Source: Lactimicrobium massiliense
GTDB taxonomy: Bacteria; Bacillota_I; Bacilli_A; Erysipelotrichales; Erysipelotrichaceae
Direction of reading: 5' to 3'
Length of the DNA stretch: 64,000 nt
Assembly (NCBI RefSeq): GCF_900343155.1
Contig: NZ_OUNG01000001.1
Coordinates: 434,001 to 498,000 of the forward strand
Shown one piece after another: positions 11,834 to 57,400 of the stretch (position 1 is the first letter of the stretch; the number at the start of each line of letters is the position of its first letter). The notes under the pieces were generated by a model. That model saw nothing but the letters and a program-made list of their open reading frames with translations. It did no database searches and was not told the origin of the DNA. A program made the translations under genes and the position numbers.

Positions 11834-12104
11834 AAAAAACAGTCCTCATCCCATGTTTGGGACGAAGGACTGTACTCCGCGGTGCCACCCAGAATTATTG
11901 ATCACTCGATCAATCGCTTAGTCTCCTGACAATCATCAGGGGTCAATCAGATAACGGTCTGCTCCCGTCGAAGCCTACTTTTCACATTTCGGTCCGAGGC
12001 TCAGGGGTGTTCTTTCAGCAATGCGCAATATCGAAGTTCTCACTGTTCTTCGACTCACTTGGATCCGCCTTCTGCTTACTTCTCCCCTTCATCGCTTGTG
12101 TCTC
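11834..12104 (-). promoter_or_regulatory. T-box leader, Asn specifier
   Basis: Minus-strand T-box sequence GGTGGCACCGCGG (11889-11877) is followed by a terminator hairpin ACAGTCCT / AGGACTGT (11874-11840) and six T (11839-11834). In Stem I the loop-E strand AGTA (5' side) faces GAA on the 3' side, and two bases on comes AAC followed by A (12011-12008), then CCCC closing on GGGG. AAC is an asparagine codon, in keeping with asnB downstream. Low charging of tRNA-Asn should favour the antiterminator. Confidence 0.9.
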
Positions 12105-36246: not shown

Positions 36247-37068
36247 TTACTTTTGACTGCCCGTGTAATAGATCACAGATCCCGGGGGTACACTGTGCAG
36301 CAGCCACACATTGCCGCCAATGACAGAATGATCGCCAACCACTGTATCACCGCCAAGTATAGTCGCATTGGCATAGATCACAACGTGGCTGCCGATATCC
36401 GGGTGGCGTTTTCCACCTTTGACAGGATTGCCGTCCTGATCGAGCTGGAAGCTGCGGGCTCCAATCGTCACGCCCTGATAGAGTTTGACATGTTCCCCGA
36501 TTCTTGCCGTTTCGCCAATGACGATGCCAGTTCCGTGATCAATGCAGAAATATGCACCGATTGTAGCACCGGGGTTAATATCAATACCGGTTTTTTCATG
36601 GGCATATTCTGCCATGACTCTGGGCAGATATGGCACATGCAGTGTATAGAGGACATGGGCAATACGGTAAATCATGACCGCATAGAAGCCCGGATAGCAG
36701 AGTATGATCTCTGCTTTGCTTTTGGCAGCAGGATCACCATCATAGATTGCCTGCAGATCACTCATCAGCAGCTTCTTAACCTGAGGCAGCGAAGACATGA
36801 AGGCATCCGCAATCGTAGAGGCGTCCACAGAGGGATCGCCGATCCGGTTATTCACAATCCGGATTTCTTTCTCCAGGCATGCCTGCAGTTCTATAAAGGC
36901 CTCACTCTGACTCAGATCAGAGAAATGATAATAGCCTGGCAGCAGAATGACCTGTGCTTCCTTCAGAAGATAGACGATCACCTTCCGGTCCGGCAGTCCT
37001 GAGGATGCCATCAATGATGGATCACTGATTTCATTCAGTTCTGCCAGAATTTCTGCTGCCTTGCTCAT
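36247..37068 (-). CDS. cysE: serine O-acetyltransferase
   Basis: Makes O-acetylserine from serine and acetyl-CoA, 273 residues. An N-terminal helical domain (to about 145) is followed by the left-handed beta-helix hexapeptide repeats: DINPGATIGAYFCIDHGTG, VIGETARIGEHVKLYQGVTIGA, then HPDIGSHVVIYANATILGG. The catalytic His is in DHGTG. It starts 20 bases after cysK, so both are under the cysK leader. Confidence 0.94.
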   Translation of the reverse strand: MSKAAEILAELNEISDPSLMASSGLPDRKVIVYLLKEAQVILLPGYYHFSDLSQSEAFIELQACLEKEIRIVNNRIGDPSVDASTIADAFMSSLPQVKKLLMSDLQAIYDGDPAAKSKAEIILCYPGFYAVMIYRIAHVLYTLHVPYLPRVMAEYAHEKTGIDINPGATIGAYFCIDHGTGIVIGETARIGEHVKLYQGVTIGARSFQLDQDGNPVKGGKRHPDIGSHVVIYANATILGGDTVVGDHSVIGGNVWLLHSVPPGSVIYYTGSQK

Positions 37069-37088: not shown

Positions 37089-38021
37089 TTACTCTGCAAA
37101 CATGGATGTGGAAAGATAGCGGTCACCGGAATCCGGCAGAATAATGACGATATTCTTACCCGCATTCTCTTCACGCTGTGCCAGCTTGATGGCTGCAGCC
37201 ACAGCAGCACCGGAAGAAATACCAACCAGCACACCCGTACGGCGGCCAAACTCACCGCCAACCTTTAATGCCTCATCATTGGTGATGCGCACAATCTCAT
37301 CAATCAGGCTTGTATCCATGACTTCCGGAATAAAGCCGGCACCAATACCCTGAATCTTGTGCGGGCCTGGTTTCTCACCAGAAAGCACTGCCGAAGAATC
37401 CGGTTCCACTGCCACAACTTTGACATTCGGATTCTTTTCCTTCAGATACTTTCCTGTACCAGTCAAAGTACCGCCGGTGCCGACACCGGACACCAGGATA
37501 TCGACCTTGCCATCGGTATCATTCCAGATTTCAGGGCCAGTGGTTGTATAGTGTGCCTTCACATTGGAAGGATTGACAAACTGACCGGCAACCCAGGAAC
37601 CCGGGATCTCTTTGGACAGTTCATCTGCCTTAGCAATGGCACCCTTCATACCCTTGGCACCTTCGGACAGCACCAGCTCTGCACCATATGCCTTCATCAG
37701 CTTGCGGCGCTCCACGGACATGGAATCCGGCATCACAATGATCACCCGGTATCCTCTGGATACACCGACAGCACTCAGGCCAATACCGGTATTGCCAGAT
37801 GTTGGTTCAATAATTGTACCACCTTTTTTCAGGCGGCCATCCTTTTCTGCATCATCAATCATCTGTCTGGCAATTCTGTCCTTGATGGAGCCTGTCGCAT
37901 TCAGATACTCCAGCTTGCCCAGCAGCTTTGCCTTCACTCCATACTCTTCTTCAATACCTTTCAGTTCCAGCAACGGCGTATTGCCAATCAGCTGCTCTAC
38001 GGATGTGTAAATCTTACTCAT
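37089..38021 (-). CDS. cysK: cysteine synthase (O-acetylserine sulfhydrylase)
   Basis: PLP enzyme making cysteine from O-acetylserine and sulfide, 310 residues. LEYLNATGSIKDRIA near 40-55 holds the PLP Lys; PTSGNTGIGL near 72 and GVGTGGTLTGTGKYL near 178 bind the cofactor phosphate and substrate. The ATG at 38021 has GGAGAAGAG upstream. The frame continues far upstream, but that part is the leader region with an attenuator hairpin only 23 bases before the start. First structural gene of cysK-cysE. Confidence 0.96.
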   Translation of the reverse strand: MSKIYTSVEQLIGNTPLLELKGIEEEYGVKAKLLGKLEYLNATGSIKDRIARQMIDDAEKDGRLKKGGTIIEPTSGNTGIGLSAVGVSRGYRVIIVMPDSMSVERRKLMKAYGAELVLSEGAKGMKGAIAKADELSKEIPGSWVAGQFVNPSNVKAHYTTTGPEIWNDTDGKVDILVSGVGTGGTLTGTGKYLKEKNPNVKVVAVEPDSSAVLSGEKPGPHKIQGIGAGFIPEVMDTSLIDEIVRITNDEALKVGGEFGRRTGVLVGISSGAAVAAAIKLAQREENAGKNIVIILPDSGDRYLSTSMFAE

Positions 38022-38043: not shown

Positions 38044-38073
38044 AAAAACCCGGTGTATCTCTTTACACCGGGT
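38044..38073 (-). terminator. attenuator terminator before cysK
   Basis: Minus-strand ACCCGGTGT / ACACCGGGT perfect 9-bp stem, eight-base loop, TTTTTG. It lies between a leader peptide and cysK. The 5' arm (CCCGGT, 38072-38067) can instead pair with ACCGGG at 38134-38129 in the leader peptide gene, extended by an A-T and a T-G pair to eight pairs. Confidence 0.85.
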
Positions 38074-38113
38074 ATCACTTCTACTGCTTTCTGATGCACG
38101 TAAAATACGTGAA

Positions 38114-38182
38114 TCACGCAAGGTGAATCCCGGTATGATACATGCAACAACATACGGCCGTGAATACTGTTACGATCTTCAT
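38114..38182 (-). CDS. cysteine-rich leader peptide of cysK-cysE
   Basis: A 22-codon open frame with AGGAGG exactly seven bases before its ATG. Codons 11-13 are TGT TGT TGC, three cysteines in a row (peptide core TAVCCCMYHTG). The stop codon lies 41 bases before the attenuator hairpin. Codons 17-18 (ACC GGG) form the segment that can pair with the terminator arm. A ribosome stalled at the Cys codons would leave ACCGGG free for antitermination; a ribosome reaching the stop would cover it and permit termination. A further hairpin CACGTA / TACGTG lies between the peptide stop and the attenuator. Confidence 0.8.
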   Translation of the reverse strand: MKIVTVFTAVCCCMYHTGIHLA

Positions 38183-38205
38183 ATGGGATCCTCCTGACAT
38201 GTTTT

Positions 38206-38233
38206 ATAATACCTGAACTTTTCCAAATGTCCA
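38206..38233 (-). promoter_or_regulatory. cysK-cysE promoter
   Basis: Minus-strand TGGACA (38233-38228), 16 bases, TATTAT (38211-38206), giving a transcript that starts about 17 bases before the leader peptide ATG. Confidence 0.62.
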
Positions 38234-38261: not shown

Positions 38262-39025
38262 TGACCGCCCGTAAAACGGGCGGTTTGTCCTACGCCTATA
38301 AGGCTTTATTACTAGCCAGCGTCTTAAGGCGCTGGCTTTCGCATCTTCAATGTTCAAGCCACGATTGCAGTTTAACTCTCTCGCATGCCCGTTAAACGGG
38401 CTCTTTTACTCATGACTTCGCTGTTGTCTTCCGATTCGGATTCGGCTTTCTGTTTTCTTTATCCTCTCCGAATGGATCTTCATATTCCTTTACGCTTAAC
38501 TTATCTTTTGCGATATCTGCGCTTTCCTGTTCACGGATATATTTGCGTATTGTGGATTCATTGATCCCTACTGTGCTCGCATAGTATCCTTCCGCCCAAA
38601 AATGTCTGTTCCCATATTTGTATTTCAGGTTCGCATGCTTATCAAATATTTCAAGCGAGGACTTTCCTTTGATGTATCCCATGATCTGTGATACAGAGTA
38701 CTTTGGAGGGATACTCAAAAGAAGATGTACGTGGTCGGGCATCAGATGCCCTTCCAGAATCTCCACTCCTTTGTATTTGCACAGCAGTTTTATGATATCC
38801 CGGATATCTGGGCGCAGTTGATTATAAATTACTTTTCTTCTATACTTCGGAGTGAACACGACATGATATACGCAGTAATATTTCGTGTGAGCTAATGAAT
38901 CATATTTGTTAGCCGTATTTGGCACCTCATCTTTCTAGAATCGTGACTTGGACAATCACCATTCTAGATAGATGGGGTGCTTCTTTCTATAAGAAGCACC
39001 GGCCTTCCTCCCGCATAGCGGGAGG
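38262..39025 (-). mobile_element. IS200-like element (approximate limits)
   Basis: Single-gene element bounded by hairpins typical of this family: GACCGCCCGT / ACGGGCGGT (38264-38283) with a second AGCCAGCG / CGCTGGCT stem near 38316-38339, and CCTCCCGC / GCGGGAGG (39007-39025) at the tnpA-upstream side. An inverted pair TCTAGAAT / ATTCTAGA (38934-38967) lies just before the gene and may hide its start signals. It sits between the cysK promoter and galE. Confidence 0.65.
38410..38925 (-). CDS. tnpA: IS200-family transposase TnpA
   Basis: HUH transposase of 171 residues: YHVVFTPKYRRKV near 20, HUH motif MPDHVHLLLSIPP near 65, WAEGYYASTVG near 112 and catalytic Tyr in IRKYIREQE near 130. It carries a basic tail (KENRKPNPNRKTTAKS) beyond the usual end. 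It appears intact. No tnpB is present in this element. Confidence 0.92.
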   Translation of the reverse strand: MPNTANKYDSLAHTKYYCVYHVVFTPKYRRKVIYNQLRPDIRDIIKLLCKYKGVEILEGHLMPDHVHLLLSIPPKYSVSQIMGYIKGKSSLEIFDKHANLKYKYGNRHFWAEGYYASTVGINESTIRKYIREQESADIAKDKLSVKEYEDPFGEDKENRKPNPNRKTTAKS

Positions 39026-55669: not shown

Positions 55670-57097
55670 TGTTAAGATTTTTTGAAAATGTCCCATCTTG
55701 TTATAAAACTTTGATGCATCACAATCATTTAGTTTTTTCTTCCGCCATCTCATTGAGAACTTTCTGAAGTTCTTTCTCGTTATTAACTGAATAGATTCTG
55801 TCGCGCTTCCGCTCCCCAACCTTCATGCATGTGTAATGCTTTCCATATCTTTCAATGTAGATCTCTTCAGTGATCGCATCTTCATATACTGTAATACTCT
55901 GCTTCTGATTGAAGCGGACTACCTCTCCATCGCTTGTTACTGCTGTATACAGACTGTTTCCCATTGAGAATACGTTGTTCCTGATCTGCCTCGGATACTC
56001 AGCTCTGAAGATTTTCGAAGAGTTGAAGTCAGCGGGTATTGGACGGAACAGATCGTTCGGATCCTTCACCGGATATGAGAATTTCATATTCAGATAGAGC
56101 CGATATTTCCTGTTGAACCAGTCATTCAGAAGGTCATAGTTATGAGGAATCTTCCACCGAATCAAATCATTCGGGAGCCTCATCTGCGCGGTGCCGTTGT
56201 AGCGTTCCACACGTCCCTTTGCCTGGGAAGAATTGGCAAAGATCATCGTTACTCCCAGCTTATCCATCATTCTGGCAAACTGTGTCGGTGTACCTGCCTT
56301 AACGCTGCGAAACACTGAGAATTTATCCGAATACAGCGCTTCCGGAATACCGTAATTCTCCAGAACAAGCTTCATCATACGGGCATATCCGCGTGCACAT
56401 TCTTCAGGCATGAAGTATCCTGCAAGCACTCTGGTACTGGCATCATCCACTGCAAGATGCAGTACATAGTCTCTTCCGTCATTGAACCAGTCGTAAGGAG
56501 TTCCATCAATCTGGACCAGTTCTCCCATATGTGCTCTTGGAGGCCTCGTTGAATGTGTGACGCGGGAGCCGTCCATTCTGATCGGTTTATCTGCAGGGGA
56601 CTTCCATCCTTCTCTGACAAACAGTTCACGGAACCAGGATTTGCTGCGTTCCTTCAGTCCATACTTCACCACGTCAGCTTCCATATCCTTGTTTCTGATG
56701 ACGTCTTCCAGATAGATATCCCTGAATTGTGCTATGGTGATAGACGGATACGTCTTCTTAAGTCCCTCAAGGTACCTGATCTCTTGGTCGGAGGCAGTGG
56801 TTGCCGGCTTTCTTCCGGTATTGCCGTGAGTTAGGATAGCAGACGTATCCTTTTCCTTTCTTTCGGCAGACAATCGTTCAATCTGCTTCCTGCTGTAACC
56901 GCATTGATCAGCTATCCACTGGCATGTAATCTTTGGGTTTGAATCCCTCTGCTGCAGTAATTCCAGAGCCTTGACTTTGTCTTTGATCTTCTTCATCTGG
57001 ATCACCTCCAGATGAATGCATTAGTTCGGAAGAAACATGAAATCAATGGGACATTTTCATTTGATCACGTGTGGGACATTTTCATTTAACTATGACA
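55670..57097 (-). mobile_element. IS1202-like (ISNCY) insertion sequence
   Basis: A 1,428-bp element. Ends TGTTAAGATTTTTTGAAAAT (left) and TGTCATAGTTAAATGAAAAT (right, other strand), both followed by GTCCC. A 17-bp direct repeat GAAGCGGAAAGCAATGG flanks it (55653-55669, 57098-57114). The right end has the segment GGGACATTTTCATTT twice (57074-57088 and near 57048-57062), which may be transposase-binding repeats. It is inserted 21 bases from the ISL3 element. Confidence 0.9.
55725..56996 (-). CDS. IS1202-like (ISNCY) transposase
   Basis: Integrase-core (rve-type DDE) transposase, 423 residues. N-terminal helix-turn-helix (ITCQWIADQCGYSRKQIERL near 25), a charged linker, then the core: VQIDGTPYDWF near 165, LHLAVDDASTRVLAGYF near 180, and ANSSQAKGRVERYNGTAQ near 255 with the last Glu. 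ATG 56996 has GGAGG eight bases upstream. A related but distinct copy enters at 63398. Confidence 0.92.
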   Translation of the reverse strand: MKKIKDKVKALELLQQRDSNPKITCQWIADQCGYSRKQIERLSAERKEKDTSAILTHGNTGRKPATTASDQEIRYLEGLKKTYPSITIAQFRDIYLEDVIRNKDMEADVVKYGLKERSKSWFRELFVREGWKSPADKPIRMDGSRVTHSTRPPRAHMGELVQIDGTPYDWFNDGRDYVLHLAVDDASTRVLAGYFMPEECARGYARMMKLVLENYGIPEALYSDKFSVFRSVKAGTPTQFARMMDKLGVTMIFANSSQAKGRVERYNGTAQMRLPNDLIRWKIPHNYDLLNDWFNRKYRLYLNMKFSYPVKDPNDLFRPIPADFNSSKIFRAEYPRQIRNNVFSMGNSLYTAVTSDGEVVRFNQKQSITVYEDAITEEIYIERYGKHYTCMKVGERKRDRIYSVNNEKELQKVLNEMAEEKTK

Positions 57098-57114: not shown

Positions 57115-57400
57115 AAATAAAAGACAGCACTCCCGTCAATAAGGGCGCTGTCTGCGCGTTACCACCTTACTTCAAAATGACCTCACGGCCACTTCCTCTT
57201 CAAGTACGCTGAAACCAGAAATACTCGCAATCTGTAACGGGATTCCCCGTCCTGACCTACATATCAGCCAGGCAGCTCCAGGACCATGTTCAATCAATGC
57301 CGCCGCAGTTCCCTTTCACCAAATGCAGGAACCTCTCTGTCATGCTTTGACATCTGTCTACTCTTCCCTTCTTCGCTTTGTTAGTCATAGTTTACGAAAG
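57115..57400 (-). promoter_or_regulatory. orphaned Met T-box leader of metQ copy 2
   Basis: Closely similar to the T-box at 52.6-52.9 kb: T-box AAGGTGGTAACGCGC (57168-57154), terminator GACAGCGCCC / GGGAGTGCTGTC (57152-57123), TTTTATTT, Stem I with GAA-C-ATG-G. Beyond its terminator the sequence runs into the IS1202-like element instead of metQ. The sequence left of both elements (TTTATTTT next to the metQ copy 2 site) joins on as in metQ copy 1. Confidence 0.88.

Follow-up and report, generated by a model that had tools for sequence, protein, structure and literature searches.

On the minus strand of the window (the whole 64-kb stretch of DNA that was analysed), a cysteine synthase gene, cysK, is followed by a cysE-like serine acetyltransferase gene and preceded by a leader that holds a short upstream open reading frame (uORF) with a run of cysteine codons and a predicted intrinsic terminator (Table 1). 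The cysE-like product scores 159 bits with the TIGR01172 cysE model, less than its cutoff of 211, and 152 bits with the EpsC model NF041874 (cutoff 150). The original prediction had described, from the letters, a 22-codon frame with an AGGAGG site and TGT TGT TGC at codons 11–13, a 9-bp terminator hairpin with a T-run before cysK, an ACCGGG element four codons past the cysteine run that forms eight pairs with the 5′ arm of the terminator, and a CACGTA/TACGTG hairpin in between. All of these lie where they were placed, with small refinements. The terminator stem (ACCCGGTGTA/TACACCGGGT) consists of the nine pairs plus a closing A-U, ten in all, and starts 40 bases past the uORF stop; the T-run ends upstream of the cysK start codon, an ATG at 38021. 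The ACC of ACCGGG is the fourth codon after the cysteine run, and the pairing of segment 2 with the terminator 5′ arm, ATACCGGG:CCCGGTGT, has eight pairs, one of them G-U, with an extension, TCAC:GTGA, past two unpaired positions. Transcription from the predicted promoter to the terminator would yield an attenuated RNA of ~155 nt. Directly upstream of the leader is an IS200/IS605-family transposase gene (38410-38925, minus strand), followed by GC-rich hairpins, and a terminator-like hairpin (38284-38264) lies behind the transposase gene.

Table 1. Features of the cysK-cysE leader and operon, in window coordinates.
Feature	Position	Strand	Basis
Candidate sigma-70-like promoter, TGGACA-16-TATTAT	38206..38233	-	10/12 consensus positions; consensus match alone
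Leader-peptide ribosome-binding site, AGGAGG	38190..38195	-	Sequence
Segment 1, uORF ribosome-binding/start region, can pair with segment 2	38180..38198	-	AUCCC:GGGAU plus flanks; covariation, one held-out control also deviating
Leader peptide frame MKIVTVFTAVCCCMYHTGIHLA, 22 sense codons	38114..38182	-	ATG at 38182, stop TGA 38116-38114; cysteine run recurs in relatives
Cysteine codons 11-13 (TGT TGT TGC), proposed sensing codons	38144..38152	-	Sequence
Segment 2, antiterminator 5′ side, ATACCGGGATTCAC	38123..38136	-	Pairing and permutation tests
Hairpin CACGTA/TACGTG, separates segments 2 and 3	38097..38111	-	Sequence; present in full-length fold
Segment 3, GTGATACCCGGTGT, terminator 5′ arm and antiterminator 3′ side	38065..38078	-	Pairing, folding
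Intrinsic terminator, stem 38073-38048, T-run to 38044	38044..38073	-	Predicted from sequence
cysK, cysteine synthase A	37089..38021	-	TIGR01139, 427 bits (cutoff 351)
cysE-like serine acetyltransferase, 20 nt past cysK	36247..37068	-	SATase_N PF06426 and Hexapep above cutoffs

The combination is rare within the window. Among frames of up to 45 codons with a Shine-Dalgarno (SD) sequence, an ATG start and at least three consecutive cysteine codons at codons 5–17, the leader is the single case on both strands of the 64 kb, and it has a terminator behind it; two further frames contain two consecutive cysteine codons, both without a terminator. In first-order Markov copies of the same 64 kb, three-cysteine frames average 0.07 and two-cysteine frames 1.73, and none of 30 copies had a three-cysteine frame with a terminator. 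No Rfam family, the T-box RF00230 included, matches the window leader at gathering score, and relaxing the threshold to an E-value of 5 yields two sRNA matches, both far under their cutoffs. Elsewhere in the window, T-box leaders are found at 57138-57382 (minus strand, 94.5 bits), before a gene (55725-57005, minus strand) that by eye resembles a transposase and not an amino-acid gene, and at 11855-12101 (minus strand, 110.6 bits), before a gene that, judged by eye from its start, resembles an asparagine synthetase gene.

We consider it very probable, on sequence grounds, that the leader controls cysK-cysE as a ribosome-mediated transcription attenuator, with charged tRNA-Cys as the signal sensed. 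Such a device needs a translatable leader frame with a ribosome-binding site, a codon run for the amino acid that the operon makes, an intrinsic terminator before the first gene and a covarying antiterminator that excludes the terminator. By sequence, the leader has AGGAGG and an ATG ahead of 22 codons, with similar arrangements in relatives; its cysteine run precedes a cysteine synthase; a terminator is predicted in the window and in 37 of 38 leaders; and the antiterminator covaries in permutation tests, though a column count is weak. When cysteinyl-tRNA is scarce, the ribosome would stall at cysteine codon 11 with its front edge short of segment 2, which would pair at once with the nascent 5′ arm of the terminator and let the polymerase enter cysK. 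When it is plentiful, the ribosome would cover or pass segment 2, leaving the 5′ arm free, and the terminator would form. A ribosome on the cysteine codons would also keep segment 1 apart from segment 2; after it leaves, segments 1 and 2 may pair, which would occupy segment 2, close the leader’s own start site and favour termination. Enterobacterial trpL and hisL attenuators follow this logic of 1:2, 2:3 and 3:4 pairing, with the sensing codons of trpL near codon 10; segment 1 of the present leader would be the ribosome-binding site of the uORF, not the sensing-codon region.

The geometry of the leader fits this scheme. Among 57 leaders, 48 have their first sensing codon at codon 8–11, and in 55 the start of segment 2 lies at least 13 nt past that codon, a spacing that is partly built in because the script searches behind the cysteine run only; the two exceptions, L203 and L208, arise from the script’s choice of cysteine run. 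With a ribosome footprint assumed to extend from −15 to +16 of the P site, segment 2 of the window leader stays clear of a ribosome at Cys11 and is covered by one at the stop codon. In partition-function calculations, up to the point at which half of the terminator 3′ arm is made, the probability of pairing between the 5′ arm and segment 2 is 1.00 for a ribosome at Cys11, 0.98–1.00 at Cys12 and 0.66 at Cys13, and falls to 0.00 for a ribosome at the stop; a ribosome-free partial transcript also prefers the antiterminator. The original prediction, in which a stalled ribosome frees ACCGGG and a stop-bound one covers it, agrees with the window leader, but its second half does not carry over to many relatives, where the stop codon lies 20–40 nt beyond the pairing segment, so that a stop-bound ribosome passes segment 2 rather than covering it. 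The finished terminator wins in every ribosome state (−31.3 versus −28.2 kcal/mol with a stall at Cys11). Because it is finally favoured by ~3 kcal/mol even in that state, readthrough would be kinetic, the choice being made during transcription.

Similar leaders recur in the genus. Of 70 genomes, the window’s own included, 59 have a CysK match at E ≤ 0.001, which in some is no more than a weak paralogue. The upstream regions inspected were those of the best 70 CysK matches (30 loci and 40 fetched stretches), outside which lay fragments and matches of at most 49% identity; three of the 70 (L037, L067 and L069) have little upstream sequence. A manual count found a uORF with at least two consecutive cysteine codons and at least a weak SD in 31 of these 70 regions, leaving aside L039 (ambiguous), L043 (an unconvincing TTG start) and L031 and L033 (no SD); in the other 39 inspected regions the uORF was not counted as present. 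The relatives’ cysteine runs comprise 2–6 codons, in similar SD-led short frames. A strong terminator-like hairpin (score ≥ 25, single scan) is found in 37 of 38 Cys-uORF leaders from the genus and from named loci, L111 being the weak exception. Genus regions that lack the uORF reach this score in 14 of 38 cases, and shuffled leaders in 5 of 38. With the threshold at its lowest, the counts are 38, 21 and 22 of 38, respectively, so a faint hairpin is uninformative by itself. Within 500 nt after cysK, cysE is seen at 24 of 47 leader-bearing loci and not seen at two (L021 and L025), 21 having too little sequence; of nine leaderless loci, it is seen at five and not at three, and one has too little sequence.

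A covariance model, R1, built from 27 leaders and given terminator pairs only, returns the window leader as its sole match below E 0.1 in its own genome. At E ≤ 1e-3 it matches 59 of 272 genomes of the family and 60 of 315 of the order; a single match, G279 (E 3.4e-4), comes from another family. Thirty-three matches not used in training were fetched, and 25 of them precede cysK. A script finds a Cys-run uORF with an SD in 24; five more carry a cysteine run whose SD is weak, missing or at an unusual distance (L192, L200, L206, L207 and L209), two have a methionine run and one a histidine run. L216 is a chance match inside a gene, as is L252, which lies outside the 33. Four further family matches (G093, G098, G140 and G184) are partial. 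R1 adds the genera g18, g44 and g51, which points to the same leader in three further genera, that is, four genera of Erysipelotrichaceae, and perhaps elsewhere in Bacillota. The family is taken to be Erysipelotrichaceae because one leader deposited under that name, L074, is found unchanged in G121, a genome of the family. A relaxed model search of 40 genomes gave one leader-like sequence, L247 (E 6.8e-8), among ten weak or partial matches fetched; L248-L256 look like chance matches inside or beside genes. A loose pattern search of 272 genomes returned mostly apparent coding chance beside known leaders and was discarded as evidence.

The antiterminator covaries across these leaders, as judged from their pairing letters. 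Segment 2 is of CCCGG type in many of them, yet it varies together with the terminator arm, giving pairs such as CCTGGATC/GATCCAGG in L202, CGGATTA/TAATCCG in L210, AGGAAAC/GTTTCCT in L061 and GGCGA/TCGCC in L046. When terminator arms are permuted among leaders, the own arm pairs better throughout: −17.1 versus −12.8 kcal/mol (sd 0.6) for 24 leaders, with 0 of 20000 permutations as good; −18.2 versus −13.3 kcal/mol for the 22 leaders of a non-redundant training set (0 of 10000); and −21.1 versus −16.6 kcal/mol for 19 held-out leaders (0 of 10000), figures that ignore phylogeny and are not strict probabilities. The 24-leader set omits the near-identical L008, L010, L012 and L019, along with type-B leaders (described below) and those from other Bacillota; in this set, L040 and L041 pair with their own arm no better than with the arms of others. 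The training set omits L008, L010 and L074 and was thinned by similarity from 25 to 22. The held-out set omits L187 (terminator mis-assigned), L203 and L208 (second cysteine run taken), L213-L215 (methionine or histidine runs) and L178, identical to L074 of the covariance-model training set; it was thinned from 25 to 19, near-identical leaders being removed, and L200 and L209, without an SD, are absent.

An alignment of relatives had been proposed as the check, with cysteine codons, ACCGGG/CCCGGT pairing and terminator expected to covary. The cysteine run, frame, terminator and ACCGGG/CCCGGT-type pairing do recur, with different pairing letters, but a column count on the MAFFT alignment A1 is weak for the antiterminator: 74.8% paired versus 72.4% after shuffling (30 of 500), and a slide of one column scores higher, some rows having segment 2 out of register. 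For the terminator, A1 gives good support, with 14 two-sided cells (0 of 500). Overall, the recurrence and the pairing covariation support the predicted ribosome-mediated cysteine attenuator.

A third helix, an addition to the earlier reading, likely joins the ribosome-binding site of the uORF to segment 2, or belongs to a helix that reaches further upstream. The window’s 1:2 pairing joins AUCCC with GGGAU plus flanks; segments 1, 2 and 3 read ACAGG, CCTGG and CCAGG in L202, and ACGGG, CCCGG and CCGGG in many other leaders. Segment 1 pairs better with segment 2 of its own leader, permutations matching it in 0 of 10000 cases for the training set and 9 of 10000 for the held-out set. A control pairing of the ribosome-binding site with the terminator arm gives no signal (9351 and 2474 of 10000). 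A second control, the stretch just upstream of the ribosome-binding site, shows nothing in the training set (3998 of 10000) but does depart from the permutations among held-out leaders (115 of 10000; 520 of 10000 with L178 still included), which makes the third helix less certain. The 1:2 helix would shut the leader’s own translation.

Several other explanations of the leader can be weighed against attenuation by tRNA charging. The cysteine-rich peptide might itself be the sensor, through nascent-chain arrest or thiol or metal binding, and respond to redox state, metal or free cysteine. Runs of up to six cysteines in some relatives and the recurring CCRVLCSRA sequence of the leader type of L056, L057 and L059 speak for it, but in the main type the cysteine run is kept and the other residues vary, a pattern that arrest peptides are not known to show. 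Similar leaders in which methionine codons precede a MetN-like gene, or histidine codons a binding-protein gene, also argue against a peptide sensor, which we regard as improbable. It is extremely improbable that the terminator merely ends transcripts of the IS200-like transposase gene, with the short frame arising by chance: that gene does lie upstream on the same strand, but the hairpin behind it already resembles a terminator, and among 30 loci of the genus, taken with 1.5 kb flanks as far as sequence allowed, an IS200/IS605-family transposase accompanies the window’s own locus only, whereas the relatives have uORF, terminator and pairing.

Control of cysK by a T-box, S-box or other ligand-binding leader, with an incidental uORF, has a precedent in the Cys T-box of Clostridium perfringens cysK-cysE (PMC2940859). 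The original prediction named a riboswitch here among the findings that would overturn it; besides the blank Rfam result for the window leader, no family reaches gathering score at the leaders of 18 Cys-uORF loci, and no T-box appears in the 48 genus regions scanned (of 70), with and without uORF. The same search does detect T-boxes at other places in the window, and also ahead of metN at three of four loci, and we find a ligand-binding leader very unlikely. A comparably slight probability attaches to translation coupling or Rho, as proposed for actinobacterial Cys-run uORFs, with a hairpin that does not terminate in vivo: the actinobacterial uORFs indeed lack conserved terminators in the parts of that report consulted (PMC1262725), but a strong terminator-like hairpin is seen in 37 of 38 of the present leaders, with a covarying partner for its 5′ arm.

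Attenuation by cysteinyl-tRNA would place the leader among systems in print: Cys-run attenuators of cysS, mycobacterial Cys uORFs and His-run attenuators of Erysipelotrichales, to which the cysK-cysE case in Bacillota adds. For mycobacteria, an experimental study by Canestrari from 2020 reportedly names cysteine-responsive, leaderless attenuators in its title. The uORFC-8-2 motif of Rhodobacterales cysS, for which Cys-tRNA attenuation has been proposed, likewise combines a short uORF containing tandem cysteine codons with an intrinsic terminator behind it; as described in the sections consulted, it differs in belonging to Proteobacteria and cysS and in having two cysteine codons, usually 14–15, inside the first stem (PMC8632094). 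His attenuators of his operons, reported from Erysipelotrichales, Eubacteriales and the B. cereus group, share the codon-run leader peptide, terminator and antiterminator but serve histidine codons and his operons, and the word cysteine is absent from the main text of that report (PMC9413887). The rli60 leader of Listeria ilv-leu is also a Firmicute ribosome-mediated attenuator, with four regions forming alternative structures, but has branched-chain codons and other genes, going by the portions consulted (PMC8079631). Cys-run uORFs precede cysteine genes in Mycobacterium, P. acnes and B. longum, where, in the parts consulted, the run lies near the stop codon and no terminator hairpin is conserved (PMC1262725). 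The C. perfringens system shares the gene pair, the signal and premature termination but is a T-box riboswitch with a Cys specifier codon and no uORF; for cysteine genes of Bacillota at large, the portions consulted name T-boxes as the regulators of clostridia, and CymR or CysR as those of Bacillales and streptococci (PMC2940859).

The arrangement had been thought new, and no Cys-run attenuator before cysK in Bacillota was found in the open PMC literature (including PMC2965389, PMC8546594 and PMC13236596, as far as consulted; most subscription papers are outside this scope). Its novelty is smaller than supposed, given the cysS and His-run cases (PMC8632094, PMC9413887). Rfam flagged none of the leaders scanned, and the cysK-cysE leader would offer a testable switch with natural sequence variants.

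Related leaders precede other genes and may be cases in which amino-acid specificity has changed through the codon run. L195, with a CCC run, precedes an ATC hydrolase gene (PF14196, E 3e-18), and the gene after the Cys leader L207 is, by eye, nearly identical. In both, the hydrolase gene is followed by one that looks binding-protein-like by eye; these are perhaps cysteine salvage operons. The Cys leader L206 precedes a transporter gene (best model a GPH symporter, far below cutoff), and the gene after L247 is similar to it by eye. L213 and L214 have a methionine-rich frame (MKTMM...) before coding sequence; MetN is the best model for the cut protein of L214 (334 bits, cutoff 500), L213 being masked there. 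In the window’s own genus, L257 has a KMMMCM leader before metN and is the one of four scanned metN loci without a T-box. L215 combines six consecutive histidine codons and an 11-pair segment 2 with a downstream ABC-type binding-protein gene, for which a cystine-binding model is best (62 bits, cutoff 312) and HisJ gives 21 bits, leaving its link to histidine unconfirmed.

A broader reading is that Erysipelotrichaceae reuse one attenuator scaffold, its antiterminator segment shared by the leader’s ribosome-binding site and the terminator arm, with interchangeable codon runs: cysteine for cysK-cysE, the ATC hydrolase and the transporter, methionine for metN and histidine for an amino-acid binding protein. 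It would sometimes stand where relatives use a T-box (metN only), and after the decision the leader’s own translation would be closed down as well. We hold this tentatively, as a possibility with the odds somewhat against it, and slightly less readily than before because the held-out 1:2 control deviates and the protein behind the histidine run is no clear histidine protein.

L179 carries a Cys-run leader before a gene of unassigned kind whose protein has a membrane-like start. A second, type-B leader precedes cysK in L056, L057, L058 and L059, with a CCRVLCSRA-like peptide and a different pairing layout; L059 corresponds to R1 match G058:C1. Among the best 80 named CysK loci listed (434853 bases, both strands), five SD-led CCC frames occur, all directly before cysK: L074, L095 (a Phascolarctobacterium MAG) and L100, L103 and L145 (Clostridia MAGs), with MAG names as deposited. 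A strict terminator scan is positive in four of the five and negative in L074, and L095, L100, L103 and L145 have pairing layouts unlike the main type. Together with L143, these four MAG loci from other Bacillota have Cys-rich uORFs and terminators before cysK, and in all of them the ribosome-binding site of the uORF is able to pair strongly with the uORF’s own 3′ part.
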